Shown: positions 49,848 through 55,403 of the stretch, in pieces | Layout: every line of letters begins with the position of its first letter | How positions within the stretch are numbered: position 1 is the first letter of the stretch | Assembly (NCBI GenBank): GCA_900472175.1 | Contig: UCHD01000010.1 | Location: 1-64,000, forward strand | Reading direction: 5' to 3' | DNA: 64,000 bases | DNA from: Hyphomicrobiales bacterium | Lineage (GTDB): Bacteria; Pseudomonadota; Alphaproteobacteria; Rhizobiales; Rhizobiaceae | The notes under the pieces: generated by a model | Databases searched by the model: none | What the model saw: only the letters and a program-made list of their open reading frames with translations | What the model was told of the DNA's origin: nothing | Position numbers and translations under genes: made by a program

Positions 49848-50276
49848 TCAGGGATAGATGACGCCCTTGCGCAGAATGACATTGCCGTAAAGCCGCGGTT
49901 CGCTGGTCTGGACGACGGTATGCGCCGCGCGAACCCTTGGATAGAATTCCGGCCCGAGAAGTGGTGTGACTGCACGGTCGGGTTCGTATTTGGCGCAGCA
50001 GTCGATAATGTCCTGATGCACGGGGTCGAGTGCGTCGCGATCCTGTTTCACAGTGGCGCGAAAAATTGCCGACGGTACGAAATCGTCGATCGGCAGGACG
50101 CTGAGGATGGCGTCGAGAACCGGAATCAGATGATGCCCGTCGAGCCGGATCAACCGGCGGCCATGTTCAAGGCCGGGATAGTTGCCATCGACCAGAGCAA
50201 TTTCGTCGCCATGGCCCATGGCGCGCAATGTGCTTAAAAGCTCGGGGCTTAAAAGCGGGTTCAGACCTTTCAGCAT
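49848..50276 (-). CDS. RbsD/FucU-family sugar mutarotase
   Basis: 142 residues, close to FucU length. Opening LKGLNPLLSPELLSTLRAMG with HGDEIALVDGNYP (the catalytic His and acidic residues of the RbsD/FucU fold), and a closing RLYGNVILRKGVIYP that resembles the FucU end. The enzyme interconverts sugar anomers or ring forms. Its ATG overlaps the frcR stop by one base (TGATG), so it is translated with the fructose regulator. Fructose or a related sugar is the likely substrate by context, not by sequence. Confidence 0.88.
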   Translation of the reverse strand: MLKGLNPLLSPELLSTLRAMGHGDEIALVDGNYPGLEHGRRLIRLDGHHLIPVLDAILSVLPIDDFVPSAIFRATVKQDRDALDPVHQDIIDCCAKYEPDRAVTPLLGPEFYPRVRAAHTVVQTSEPRLYGNVILRKGVIYP

Positions 50277-51508
50277 CAGGGTGTTTCCTTGAAAAGAACG
50301 TTTGTGTCGATGAGGTAACGGGAAAACAGTGGCAGGCTGGCGCCGCCGATAGCGCGGGCCTGCGCGCCGACGGCGCCTTCGATGATGTCAGGCAGGATGA
50401 CGCCTTCGAGATCGAGTTCCCCGGCTGCATTGCGGATTGCCGCGACGATGCGCTCGCGCACCCAGCCGGGAAAACCTCCGTCGATCACGGCGGCGCCGAA
50501 ATCGATGATCGAGGCGGAGGAGACGATGGCCTGCGCCAGTGCTGCGGCCGTCAGCTGGATCCACGTTTCCAGCGGTTCGCCGAAATCGATCCATTCATCG
50601 GCGGAATACCAGAGTGGCTTCGGGTCTATGCCCCTCTCGCGCAGCAGATTTTCAAGCACGTATATCGAGGCTATTTTCAACAGCTGCTGCGGCTTGCCGT
50701 TCTTGTCGGAAACCTGCAGCGGGCCGACGGCGCCGGCCGTTCCGGTGCGGCCGGAAAACAACGCCGAGTTCAGGACGATGCCGCCGCCGATGAACGAGCC
50801 GATATAGAAATAGATGAAATCCGGATAGGAAGAGCCGACCCCGAAGATCAGTTCGGCACCACAGGCGCTGGTGGCATCGTTCTGCATCAGCACGGGGTGA
50901 TGGGTGCGGGCCGCCACCTCTTCGCGCAGATCAAAACCGCGCCAGCTGTTCATCGCCTCGCGCGGTGCGCCGGTCTCCTCGGCCCAGCTCCAGAGCTGGA
51001 AGGGGGTGGCGATGCCGACGCCCGCGATGCGTTCGCGTTGCTCCGCAGTCAGCATCTTTTCAAGTTTCGGGATGCCCTCCGTGATGAAAGACAGGATGTC
51101 GCCGGGCATCGGATAGGCATGGGCTTGATGTAACTGCAGGCGGATATTGCCGACGAAATCCATCAGCACGAGATCGCAGCTGCGCCGGCCGATCTTGACG
51201 CCGTAGGAATAGACCGCATCCGGATTGAGCCGCATCGGGATCGAGGGCTGGCCGACACGGCCGCGCACGGGTTCGCCGCGCATCAACAGGTTGTCTTTTT
51301 CCAGCGCCCGCATGATGACCGTCACCGTCTGTGCCGAAAGGCCGGAACGCCGGGCAATGTCGGCCTTCGACAGGCTGCCGTGGCGGCGTACCAGCGACAT
51401 GACCAGCCGTTCGTTATAGGCGCGGACGCGGGTCAGGTTTGCGCCACCGCCAGGATCGAAAACGTCCGGAACGGTCGATGCACCGCCGGAACCGGCTTGT
51501 GATGTCAT
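50276..51508 (-). CDS. frcR: ROK-family transcriptional regulator of fructose uptake
   Basis: 410 residues of the NagC/XylR-type ROK family. An N-terminal winged helix has SLVRRHGSLSKADIARRSGL then SAQTVTVIMRALEKDN. The sugar-kinase-like part follows, with MQNDATSACGAELIFG and GSFIGGGIVLNSALFSGRTG. The usual ROK cysteine-rich zinc motif is missing. It is divergent from the fructose transporter genes in the order known for S. meliloti frcRBCAK. FrcR probably represses frcB until fructose or a phosphate ester binds. The candidate operator lies at 51659-51679. Confidence 0.85.
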   Translation of the reverse strand: MTSQAGSGGASTVPDVFDPGGGANLTRVRAYNERLVMSLVRRHGSLSKADIARRSGLSAQTVTVIMRALEKDNLLMRGEPVRGRVGQPSIPMRLNPDAVYSYGVKIGRRSCDLVLMDFVGNIRLQLHQAHAYPMPGDILSFITEGIPKLEKMLTAEQRERIAGVGIATPFQLWSWAEETGAPREAMNSWRGFDLREEVAARTHHPVLMQNDATSACGAELIFGVGSSYPDFIYFYIGSFIGGGIVLNSALFSGRTGTAGAVGPLQVSDKNGKPQQLLKIASIYVLENLLRERGIDPKPLWYSADEWIDFGEPLETWIQLTAAALAQAIVSSASIIDFGAAVIDGGFPGWVRERIVAAIRNAAGELDLEGVILPDIIEGAVGAQARAIGGASLPLFSRYLIDTNVLFKETP

Positions 51509-51658
51509 GCCCGTTACCTCCCTAAAGCGCGATCTCCTATCCGGGTTGGGTTGTTCCGGACTGGCCTCCTGATCACGCCTTGCATTTTGTTTCTTGCGTA
51601 CACTGCAACCACGAGGAGCGCATGCACATTTTCTGCGCAGAGAATGGCACAGATTTTT

Positions 51659-51679
51659 AATAATTCAATTTGATTTATT
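51659..51679. promoter_or_regulatory. Candidate FrcR operator
   Basis: AATAATTCAA-T-TTGATTTATT: two ten-base arms with nine matching pairs around a central T. It abuts the TTGACA box, where a ROK repressor would block polymerase. Base composition (A/T arms) fits ROK operators. Confidence 0.55.
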
Positions 51680-51681
51680 TA

Positions 51682-51687
51682 TTGACA
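51682..51687 (+). promoter_or_regulatory. Probable -35 box of frcB
   Basis: A perfect TTGACA, 123 bases before the frcB start. Seventeen bases further is only TTGTTT, so the -10 is uncertain. Confidence 0.4.
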
Positions 51688-51809
51688 GCATTTCATTTTG
51701 ATGTTTGTTTTGTGTCCGGAAGCGCCACCCGCACAGAGGAGATGTTGCGGTGGGCGAAGCCTGACGGACCGGTTCGCCGGTTCCTTTTTTCAATCCTTGG
51801 GAGGATTTC

Positions 51810-52835
51810 ATGAAGAAGACTATTGTTTCCGCCGCTCTCGGCGCGCTGGCGCTTGGCGTCGTATTTGCAGCCCCTGCCCAGGCCGCCGGTGTTTCGGCTT
51901 GCCTGATTACCAAGACCGATACCAACCCCTTCTTCGTCAAGATGAAGGAAGGCGCCGAAGCCAAGGCCAAGGAGCTGGGTGTTGACCTGAAGTCCTATGC
52001 CGGCAAGGTCGATGGCGACCATGACAGCCAGGTTGCCGCCATCGAATCCTGCATCGCCGATGGCGCCAAGGGTATCCTGATTGCCGCTTCCGACACCAAG
52101 GCCATCGTTGACCAGGTCAAGAAGGCGCAGGATGCCGGCCTTCTCGTCATCGCTCTCGACACCCCGCTGGATCCGCCCGGTTCGGCCGATGCAACCTTTG
52201 CAACGGACAACCTGCAGGCCGGCAAGTTGATTGGCGCCTGGGCTGCCGCGACGCTCGGCGACAAGGCCAAGGATGCCAAGATCGGCTTCCTCGATCTCGT
52301 TCCTTCGCAGCCGACTGTCGATGTTCTGCGCGACCAGGGCTTCATGATCGGCTTCGGCATTGACCCGAAGGATCCGGCGAAGATTGGCGATGAGGACGAT
52401 CCGCGCATCGTCGGCCATGACGTGACCAACGGCAACGAAGAAGGTGGCCGCACCGCCATGGAAAACCTTCTCCAGAAGGACCCGGACATCAACGTCATCC
52501 ACACGATCAACGAACCGGCCGCAGTTGGCGCCTATGAAGCGCTGAAGGCCGTCGGCAAGGAAAAGGACGTTCTGATCGTTTCCGTCGACGGCGGTTGCCC
52601 GGGCGTCAAGTCGGTGGCTGAAGGCGTCATCGGCGCGACATCACAGCAATATCCGCTGCTGATGGCCTCGCTCGGCATCGAAGCGATTGCCCAGTACGCC
52701 AAGGACGGCACCAAGCCGCAGCCGACTGCAGGCAAGGACTTCTTCGACACGGGCGTTGCACTCGTCACCGACAAGCCGGCCGCCGGCGTCGAGTCGATCG
52801 ACGTCAAGACCGGCACGGACAAGTGCTGGGGTTGA
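51810..52835 (+). CDS. frcB: Fructose ABC transporter, substrate-binding protein
   Basis: 341 residues. Signal peptide about 1-25 ([20 protein letters not shown]), then a type I periplasmic sugar-binding fold with [39 protein letters not shown] and the hinge region [12 protein letters not shown]. The two C-terminal cysteines (one near GGCPGV, one in DKCWG) could form a disulfide. It delivers fructose (and in S. meliloti also mannose and ribose) to the membrane complex. GGGAGGA lies before the ATG. First gene of the frcBCAK operon. Confidence 0.9.
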
Positions 52836-52868
52836 TGCTCTAGGGCTTTAAGCACACAATCAATATGG

Positions 52869-52892
52869 AAGGGCGGTTTCAAGGCCGCCCTT
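52869..52892 (+). terminator. Intercistronic hairpin between frcB and frcC
   Basis: AAGGGCGG (52869-52876), an eight-base loop and CCGCCCTT (52885-52892), then TTCAAC. It lies in the 104-base frcB-frcC gap, so it is more likely a partial terminator or RNA-stabilising hairpin that lowers expression of the downstream genes. Confidence 0.65.
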
Positions 52893-52939
52893 TTCAACAA
52901 CCGGTTGGTAGGCCGGTCTCTTGGGAGGGAGGCGTTGTC

Positions 52940-53998
52940 ATGACAAGCGTCCAGGAATTCGAAAAAACACTGGATCAGAGCGACAAAACAGTCGCTTCAT
53001 TCGAAGATCGTTCGCTTCTGCGGCGCGTTCAGCATTTCCTGCATTCGACACCGGCTGCCGTGCCGGCAATCGTGCTGATTGTATCCATCATCGTATTCGG
53101 CGTTTTGAAGGGCGAGCGGTTCTTCACGGCCGGAACGCTGACTTTGATCCTGCAGCAGATCGCCGTCGTCGGTATTCTCGGCGCCGCGCAGACGCTGGTC
53201 ATCCTGACCGCCGGTATCGACCTGTCGATCGGCGTTATCATGGTCCTGTCCGCGGTCGCCATGGGCAACTGCGCGGTCACCTATGGCATGCCGGCGCCGC
53301 TCGCCGTGCTCGTCGGCTTTGTCGTCGCTGGCGTTTGCGGCCTGATCAACGGCTTCCTCGTTGCCCGGGTGAAACTTCCCCCCTTCATCGTCACGCTCGG
53401 CACATGGAGCATCTTTGCGGCGACGAACTACATCTATTCCGCCAACGAAACCATTCGCCGGGCCGATATCGAGACGTCGGCGCCCTTCCTTGGAATCTTC
53501 GGGTACAGTCTGAAGATCGGCTCGGCGGTGTTCACGCTCGGGGTGATCATGATGGTCGTGCTGGTGCTGGTACTCTGGTATGCGCTCAATCACACCGCCT
53601 GGGGGCGGCACCTTTATGCCGTCGGTGACGATCCTGAAGCCGCTAAACTTTCCGGTATCCGCACCGACCGCGTCCTGCTCGGCACCTATGCGCTGGCAGG
53701 TCTGATTGCCGGACTTGCCGCCTGGGTCTCGATCGGCCGCAATGGTTCTATCTCGCCCTCCTGGGCGGTGACCGACTACAACCTGCAGGCCATCACCGCG
53801 GCGGTGATCGGCGGTATCTCGCTGTTCGGCGGCCGTGGCTCCATCCTCGGAACGCTGTTTGGCGCGCTGATCGTCGGCGTCGTGTCGATGGGCCTCAACA
53901 TGCTCGGTGCCGATCCGCAATGGAAAGTCGGTCTCACCGGTGTCCTCATCATCTCGGCCGTTGCGGTCGATCAATGGATCAGAAAGGTGGCCGGCTGA
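52940..53998 (+). CDS. frcC: Fructose ABC transporter, permease
   Basis: 352 residues, about ten membrane helices. The first is AVPAIVLIVSIIVFGVL. The RbsC-type pattern is clear: GAAQTLVILTAGIDLSIGV and, near the end, AVIGGISLFGGRGSILGTLFGA. It would form the channel of the fructose transporter. The ATG at 52940 has GGGAGGGAGG upstream; the open frame starts earlier but without a site. Its stop overlaps the frcA start by one base. Confidence 0.9.
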   Translation: MTSVQEFEKTLDQSDKTVASFEDRSLLRRVQHFLHSTPAAVPAIVLIVSIIVFGVLKGERFFTAGTLTLILQQIAVVGILGAAQTLVILTAGIDLSIGVIMVLSAVAMGNCAVTYGMPAPLAVLVGFVVAGVCGLINGFLVARVKLPPFIVTLGTWSIFAATNYIYSANETIRRADIETSAPFLGIFGYSLKIGSAVFTLGVIMMVVLVLVLWYALNHTAWGRHLYAVGDDPEAAKLSGIRTDRVLLGTYALAGLIAGLAAWVSIGRNGSISPSWAVTDYNLQAITAAVIGGISLFGGRGSILGTLFGALIVGVVSMGLNMLGADPQWKVGLTGVLIISAVAVDQWIRKVAG

Positions 53999-54771
53999 TG
54001 GAACCTCTTCTCACTGCACGCGGTATCGTCAAGCGCTACGGCCGCGTCACGGCCCTCGATCACTCCGATTTCGATCTCTATCCCGGCGAAATCCTCGCCG
54101 TGATCGGCGACAATGGCGCCGGAAAATCTTCGCTGATCAAGGCGATCTCAGGCGCCGTCCGGCCCGACGAGGGAGAAATCCGCCTTGACGGAAAGGTCGT
54201 GCACTTTTCCAATCCGATGGAGGCGCGCGCCGCTGGCATCGAGACCGTCTATCAGAACCTTGCACTGTCGCCGGCTCTGTCGATCGCCGACAACATGTTC
54301 CTCGGCCGCGAAATCCGCAGGAGCGGCCCGATAGGCTCGCTGTTCCGGATGCTCGACCGGCCGAAGATGGAAAAGATCGCCCGCGACAAATTGAGCGAAC
54401 TGGGGCTGATGACCATCCAGAACATCAATCAGGCGGTGGAAACCCTGTCCGGTGGCCAGCGTCAGGGGGTCGCGGTGGCACGCGCCGCAGCCTTCGGCTC
54501 CAAGGTCATCATCCTCGATGAGCCGACGGCGGCCCTTGGGGTGAAGGAATCGCGCAAGGTTCTGGAACTGATCCTCGACGTGCGCAAGCGCGGCCTGCCG
54601 ATCGTGCTGATCTCGCACAATATGCCGCATGTCTTCGAGGTGGCGGACCGCATCCACATCCACCGGCTCGGCAAACGCCTCTGCGTCATCAACCCGAAGG
54701 ACTATACGATGTCGGATGCCGTCGCCTTCATGACCGGCGCCAAGGTTCCGCCGGAGGCCGCTGCCGCATGA
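53998..54771 (+). CDS. frcA: Fructose ABC transporter, ATP-binding protein
   Basis: 257 residues with one ABC domain, Walker A GDNGAGKSSLI, signature LSGGQRQGV, Walker B VIILDEPTAALG and switch His in LISHNMPHV. Most sugar ABC ATPases of this family have two such domains in 500 residues; here there is one, as in known FrcA. The stop overlaps the frcK start (ATGA), coupling the two. Confidence 0.92.
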   Translation: MEPLLTARGIVKRYGRVTALDHSDFDLYPGEILAVIGDNGAGKSSLIKAISGAVRPDEGEIRLDGKVVHFSNPMEARAAGIETVYQNLALSPALSIADNMFLGREIRRSGPIGSLFRMLDRPKMEKIARDKLSELGLMTIQNINQAVETLSGGQRQGVAVARAAAFGSKVIILDEPTAALGVKESRKVLELILDVRKRGLPIVLISHNMPHVFEVADRIHIHRLGKRLCVINPKDYTMSDAVAFMTGAKVPPEAAAA

Positions 54772-55403
54772 CCATGACGCTTGCCGCCATTGCGGATCGC
54801 ATCGTCGAAAAGGCGGACAAATCGCCCCGCTTCATCGTCGCCATTGCCGGCCCTCCCGGGGCCGGCAAGTCGACGCTGGCCGATGCCTTGCACGACGAGT
54901 TGATGCGACGGGGCGAAAAATCGGCCGTGTTGCCGATGGACGGCTTTCACATGGACAACGGCATTCTCGAAGAGCGCGGCCTGCTGAAGCGCAAAGGCGC
55001 GCCGGAGACCTTCGATGTGCGCGCCTTCATCGATATCGTTTCGGCGGTTCGAAAAGCGGACGAAGAGGTTCTCGTGCCGGTATTCGACCGGTCGCGTGAA
55101 ATCGCCATTGCGTCGGCCCGGCCGGTGTCGCCTGAAACGCGGATTATCCTGGCGGAAGGCAATTATCTCTTGCTCGATGAAAAACCATGGTCGCGGCTCG
55201 ATGGCATGTTCGACCTGTCGATCTTCGTCGGTCCACCCTATGACGTTCTGGAAGAGCGGCTGCGGCAGCGCTGGGTCCATTATGGGCTGGATGCCGCGGG
55301 CATTGAATGGAAGCTCTACGGCAATGATCTGCCGAATGGCAAGCGGATCATCGACAATTCGAGGCCGGCCGATATTGCCATCGAGATTTTCGAAACGGCC
55401 TGA
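54768..55403 (+). CDS. frcK: P-loop kinase of the fructose operon
   Basis: 211 residues, uridine-kinase/panK-like P-loop protein. Walker A is VAIAGPPGAGKSTLADAL, then the substrate region VLPMDGFHMDNGILEE and RIILAEGNYLLLDE, and a lid with ERLRQRW. In S. meliloti frcK is the last gene of frcBCAK; its substrate is not certain, and true fructokinase activity is expected from the separate frk gene at 58949. It might phosphorylate the imported sugar or a nucleoside. A small hairpin follows. Confidence 0.88.
   Translation: MTMTLAAIADRIVEKADKSPRFIVAIAGPPGAGKSTLADALHDELMRRGEKSAVLPMDGFHMDNGILEERGLLKRKGAPETFDVRAFIDIVSAVRKADEEVLVPVFDRSREIAIASARPVSPETRIILAEGNYLLLDEKPWSRLDGMFDLSIFVGPPYDVLEERLRQRWVHYGLDAAGIEWKLYGNDLPNGKRIIDNSRPADIAIEIFETA

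Follow-up and report, generated by a model that had tools for sequence, protein, structure and literature searches.

Does the near-palindrome that lies between the divergent genes frcR and frcB, directly against the -35 box of frcB, constitute the operator of FrcR? An earlier note on the window (the whole 64,000-nucleotide stretch of DNA analysed here) had proposed such a site, and direct reading of the sequence agrees with its description. The arms AATAATTCAA (51659-51668) and TTGATTTATT (51670-51679) flank a single T at 51669 and match in nine of ten pairs, as the note had said, with the sole mismatch at 51664/51674. The 21-base palindrome is followed by TA and then by a perfect TTGACA, the whole (51659-51687) reading AATAATTCAATTTGATTTATTTATTGACA, so that the claimed two-base gap was also correct. 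The distance of 150 bases given in the note for the divergent regulator was likewise correct, its ROK-family open reading frame starting at 51508.

FrcR carries a ROK domain (PF00480, 70.7 bits; cut-off 22.9) and an N-terminal winged helix-turn-helix (PF13412, 33.1 bits, cut-off 21.9; PF01047, 30.5 bits, cut-off 24.6), which is absent in ROK kinases; with both domains present, the protein is predicted to be a ROK-family transcriptional regulator. The features of the locus are collected in Table 1. A second FrcR site before frcC was considered and discarded, as the stretch that separates frcB from frcC in the window contains none of this type. A terminator-like hairpin in the leader of frcB (GGACCGGTTCGCCGGTTC, 51766-51783), immediately upstream of the ribosome-binding site, is followed by CTTTTTT. 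It was rejected as a terminator because the T-run is not kept in locus L003 and others, and the leader fold is little better than that of shuffled sequences (z -1.32; 18/200 shuffles at least as stable).

Table 1. Features of the frcR-frcB region, in coordinates of the window
Feature	Position	Strand	Remarks
frcR	50276-51508	-	ROK-family regulator with winged helix-turn-helix
Conserved box AGAATGGCA	51641-51649	-	Possible extended -10 of frcR (minus strand TGCCATTCT)
FrcR operator (predicted)	51659-51679	.	Palindrome AATAATTCAA-T-TTGATTTATT, conserved in 80 frcB loci
-35 box of frcB promoter, TTGACA	51682-51687	+	Near-invariant across loci; two bases past palindrome
Candidate -10 of frcB, TTGTTT (weak)	51705-51710	+	Putative; 17 bases past the -35 box
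frcB	51810-52835	+	Periplasmic sugar-binding protein, PF13407, 154.4 bits (cut-off 35.1)
frcC, frcA, frcK	52865-55403	+	Permease, ATPase and P-loop kinase ORFs (PF02653, PF00005, PF00485); mechanical starts

The frequency of such a palindrome by chance was estimated from 2000 dinucleotide shuffles per region. A palindrome with a one-base gap and at least nine of ten matching pairs arose in 0.75% of cases when the intergenic region (51509-51809) was shuffled and in 0.1% when 51640-51720 was; when gaps of 0-6 bases were allowed, the figures rose to 3.45% and 1.35%, respectively. Because the same scan found five other nine-of-ten palindromes with a one-base gap within the 64-kb window, and because one more nine-of-ten palindrome lies in the same intergenic region, the palindrome by itself, leaving conservation aside, is only suggestive. 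That second palindrome (CATTTTCTGCGCAGAGAATG, 51627-51646, gap 0) shares bases with the possible -10 of frcR. All ten of its pairs match in L003 and it is present in L001, and it was not seen among the more distant aligned sequences.

A scan for frcB relatives yielded 80 loci from other genomes, every one of which has a divergent FrcR-like gene (47-96% identity) upstream. Alignment of their upstream regions revealed one strongly conserved block, typically TTAATAATTCAATNNGATTTATTTATTGACA, that is present at all 80 loci. Its core, TAAWTC-N5-GATTTA, is centred on the position corresponding to 51669 and reads TAATTC-N5-GATTTA in the window (51661-51677), while the two innermost pairs of the palindrome (67/71 and 68/70) are poorly kept as pairs. 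A degenerate 27-base pattern matched exactly at 74/80 loci, with one mismatch at three and with three mismatches at another three (L031, L038, L079); the exact arms of the window recur at 50/80, and Sinorhizobium medicae (L015), a close relative of S. meliloti, has the site. A weight matrix was trained on 24 distinct 32-mers, drawn from the 79 aligned upstream regions that remain of 81 once L038 and L079 are left out, so its scores for the 80 contig loci and for the window are not independent of the training set. The window operator scored 58.5, the best in the window.

The pattern was also searched without regard to genes. With up to two mismatches it matched in 77/297 genomes of the order (three matches for a reversed control), giving 79 loci outside the window. 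At 64 of these the site lies upstream of an FrcR-like ROK gene that starts no more than 900 bases away. An frcB match is present at 56 of the 64; at the other eight a different gene takes its place, and at one of the eight (L112) another ORF stands between the site and the ROK gene. The 15 pattern loci with no FrcR nearby comprise L118, L122, L125 and a group of 12 (L151-L162) that belong to a single family of very small genomes. In five of this family (L154, L157, L159, L161, L162) the sequence AATATTTCAATTTGATTTATTTATTGA, or one base different, recurs, and a search of the surrounding contexts found no frc genes. Within the window's own genome (5.46 Mb), the only arm-pattern match with fewer than three mismatches is the site described here, beside frcR; three more matches occur at exactly three mismatches (control 1). 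Together with the shuffles and the conservation, the gene-blind scan rules out chance in AT-rich DNA as the sole cause of the palindrome.

Does the site follow frcB or its regulator? Among the matches listed, frcB relatives occur in 94/297 genomes of the order and FrcR-like genes in 111/297. The 102 frcB matches were sorted by neighbour, using all listed frcB rows and leaving out weak FrcR rows (none of which lay beside an frcB match by eye), into 68 divergent pairs, 15 same-strand pairs and 19 with no listed FrcR. The site is present in 68/68 divergent pairs, and the check set by the earlier note, i.e. that the palindrome should stand before other frcB genes, thus held in every such pair among the 297 genomes. 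The 68 consist of 55 pairs that had entered via the pattern (scores 32.9-60.2), the window, and 12 pairs that the pattern had missed and the matrix found (22.4-41.9; z 7-16). Conversely, no site was detected at the nine inspected of the 19 frcB genes with no listed frcR neighbour, where the matrix score reached at most 8.7; the remaining ten are frcB matches of 44-55% identity. Two of the nine, L178 and L185, scored 8.7 and 8.2, a slight rise over shuffles of the same sequences (z 4.8); L185 also shows a weak ROK match on the same strand.

The site also stands before other genes adjoining FrcR: PfkB sugar kinases (L093, L094, L095, L098), a fructose-6-phosphate aldolase whose score exceeds the TIGR00875 cut-off (L133), solute-binding proteins (L112, L120) and frcC (L121). 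The neighbours at L094, L095, L098, L112 and L120 were identified by Pfam, and the best NCBIfam match of the L093 neighbour is fructokinase, below its cut-off. Of 15 FrcR relatives with no frcB that were scored by the matrix, seven exceeded 20 and eight did not; likewise, only 7/15 same-strand frcR-frcB operons scored above 20 before frcR. Four same-strand loci (L187, L188, L193, L202) carry an FrcR-like palindrome before frcR, mostly with no adjoining TTGACA. In other orders of the class, an FrcR orthologue was found in 10/289 genomes at the threshold used, and all ten loci have the site (28.1-53.9), which in L227 precedes an frcA-like gene adjoining frcR. The site tracks FrcR-type genes more closely than it does frcB.

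Pairing between the half-sites was tested about 26 axes over 71 distinct sites, and the axis at 51669 gave the largest excess of complementary pairs. Here 548/710 cells were complementary, where 1000 shuffles averaged 519.3 (sd 5.6) and none exceeded 535, a statistic that ignores the relatedness of the sites. Four loci were left out of these counts, L097, L099 and L135 because the site faces frcR and L117 because of an indel. The arms AAGTTAG..CTAACTT (L175) and TACTTC..GAAGTA (L179, outside the pair count) show clear compensating changes, and G and C hold fixed half-site positions across loci. In the recognition helix of FrcR, Q60 is kept in 122/125 and T61 in 120/125 distinct helix-turn-helix regions. 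Replacement of AQT by PNA in the helix (L103, L106, L108 and the ROK-only locus L133) is accompanied by different arms. Those of L226 (PPA) are aberrant, and those of L014 and L119 (AQA) are of the ordinary type. This co-variation lends further support to the link with FrcR from a few independent lineages. The locus thus presents an inverted repeat with conserved half-sites, near a promoter and linked to the gene of its regulator, as a ROK operator would. The earlier reading of the palindrome as an FrcR site gains support from its presence in the divergent pairs, its absence at the nine inspected frcB genes with no listed frcR, its occurrence before other genes and the compensating arm changes.

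The promoters on either side are less sharply defined. A promoter scan passed no consensus sigma-70 promoter, and the candidate frcB -10 shows T-rich conservation at positions 1, 2 and 6 across loci. On the frcR side, TGCCATTCT is a possible extended -10, with TTGAAT (51668-51663, within the left operator arm) as its -35. TTGAC flanks the operator on both sides at 57/147 sites (19/80 contig loci and 38/67 order loci), which favours a repressor acting on both divergent promoters; in the window just the box facing frcB is left, and at L097, L099 and L135 the better-scoring orientation of the site faces frcR. ATG and CA of ANNATGNCA are both kept on the frcR side at 53/62 single-TTGAC loci (the window included), and the stricter AGNATGNCA occurs there at 40/62 single-TTGAC loci, 0/19 double-box loci and 3/55 loci of the order sample, a contrast between single- and double-box loci that could stem from relatedness. 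As many lineages have TGTCAAT..ATTGACA, we considered TTGACA as an outer operator arm; this is disfavoured, since the spacing of the left box varies by one base (L028 versus L085) and the right box stands two bases farther out in L038 and L079.

Because the palindrome and FrcR travel together through many alphaproteobacteria, 51659-51679 is very probably the operator of the divergently encoded FrcR. According to the model, an FrcR dimer would occupy the two TAAWTC half-sites directly against the frcB -35 box, thereby blocking the contacts of the sigma factor and of the alpha C-terminal domain of RNA polymerase at frcB and probably at frcR. FrcR would thus repress frcB, and probably its own gene, until relieved by a fructose-derived metabolite. 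Binding and its dimeric mode are inferred here, as are the effector, autoregulation and a repressing rather than an activating role. The whole explanation, in which an FrcR dimer on this site holds down frcB and probably frcR when the inducing sugar signal is missing, appears likely to us.

The S. meliloti frcBCAK/frcRS fructose ABC-transporter locus, reportedly described by Lambert in 2001, offers the closest comparison. It has the same gene order, with frcR divergent from frcB and frcCAK following, and FrcR is called a putative negative regulator there (PMC10433430). It differs in that frcB is said to be constitutive and only frcCAK inducible, from a promoter of its own (PMC10433430, citing Mauchline 2006); the passages concerned give no operator. 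The reported constitutive expression stands against the simplest version of the model, i.e. relief of frcB repression by the cognate sugar, and the lack of an FrcR-type site before frcC in the window also counts against the model. SMc02172 is placed high in computed networks (PMC11387232), in passages that give no site, and the relevant passages of PMC9611204 add nothing on frcB. In the open-access literature searched, no prior description of the site was seen; regulon databases (RegPrecise and others) lay outside the scope of the search.

It is conceivable, though we think it unlikely, that FrcR binds here mainly as an activator or dual regulator that touches RNA polymerase just upstream of the -35 box. 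The site does lie upstream of, not between, the promoter elements, its centre is at about -48 from the presumed start, and the frcB -10 is weak; however, the near-perfect and near-invariant TTGACA would need little help, and the TTGAC boxes on both operator sides argue for repression. Protein data from S. meliloti conflict and are confounded by Hfq. As reported in passages of PMC3484140, FrcR and FrcA are both about 3-fold down in an hfq mutant, which would suit activation, whereas SMc02171 (frcB by gene order) is among the raised proteins while FrcR falls, which would not; FrcB, however, is listed as lowered in PMC2848018.

If FrcR is the probable ligand of the palindrome, could another regulator, for example a ROK paralogue, bind it instead? 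The same genome holds 11 PF00480 matches in about ten genes, and one paralogue (L230, 27% identical to FrcR) has a site of its own, AATAATTAAACTAAATTATCTTATTGACA (score 29.0, at L230 1136-1167, G000:C32), lying where its ROK gene and a solute-binding-protein gene, assigned by Pfam, diverge; here too the palindrome abuts TTGACA. Judged by this sequence, the FrcR-type motif is not exclusive to FrcR, and cross-binding between FrcR and L230 sites is possible. Two further ROK genes, L232 and L234, have upstream palindromes of their own (AATTTCTAAATTTTAGAAATT and TTAAGTCAAAGCAATTGACTTAA). Because palindromes precede all three, FrcR-like with TTGACA at L230 and with other arms at L232 and L234, a palindrome joined to TTGACA is, by its sequence, a recurrent ROK layout in this genome. 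Nevertheless, those other arms, the single pattern site below three mismatches in the genome, beside frcR, and the linkage of the site to FrcR across the order make another regulator a very improbable occupant.

Hardly credible is the reading in which the block is solely an UP element for the RNA polymerase alpha subunits, needing no regulator and palindromic by accident: it is AT-rich, conserved in position and directly upstream of the -35 box, but its linkage to FrcR disfavours this, the block being absent at all nine inspected frcB genes with no listed frcR and present before other genes adjoining FrcR, as do the fixed G and C of the half-sites and the compensating arm changes. The block may well serve as an UP element in addition to its role as operator.

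Returning to FrcR as repressor, the distribution of the boxes suggests a tentative history. In the older alphaproteobacterial frcR/frcB divergon, a single FrcR operator may have lain between back-to-back -35 boxes, one dimer shutting both promoters; the Rhizobiaceae, including the organism of the window, might then have lost the frcR-facing box and recruited the left arm as a -35 for frcR, together with a separate extended -10. The regulator/operator pair might also have been put to use again in front of other genes of the fructose pathway (PfkB sugar kinase, fructose-6-phosphate aldolase).

FrcR shares its ROK domain and winged helix-turn-helix with the Escherichia coli ROK repressors Mlc and NagC, whose operators are palindromic, AT-rich and located at sugar-uptake promoters. 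It differs from them in its arms (TAAWTC..GATTTA) and in missing the cysteine-rich zinc motif typical of Mlc/NagC, since its only cysteines are Cys111 and Cys216. The NCBIfam equivalog cut-offs (530 and 650 bits) lie far above the FrcR scores (53.5 and 53.7 bits, respectively), and FrcR does not appear to be an orthologue of either repressor. Among solved ROK proteins, 7rhe (E 1.1e-52) and Lmo0178 (PDB 5f7p/5f7q; E 3.3e-12) are sequence relatives from other organisms and with other ligands.

The site emerges by comparison as an ordinary but well-supported local operator in sugar-gene regulation, with an informative divergent-promoter layout in its relatives. It gives a concrete predicted binding site to a regulator called just a putative negative regulator in passages of PMC10433430, and its conflict with the constitutive expression reported for frcB is a useful one. 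Naturally matched variants of regulator and operator would provide tests of ROK-DNA specificity. Moreover, as the motif follows FrcR through many families, control of the fructose genes in alphaproteobacteria would be predictable from sequence.
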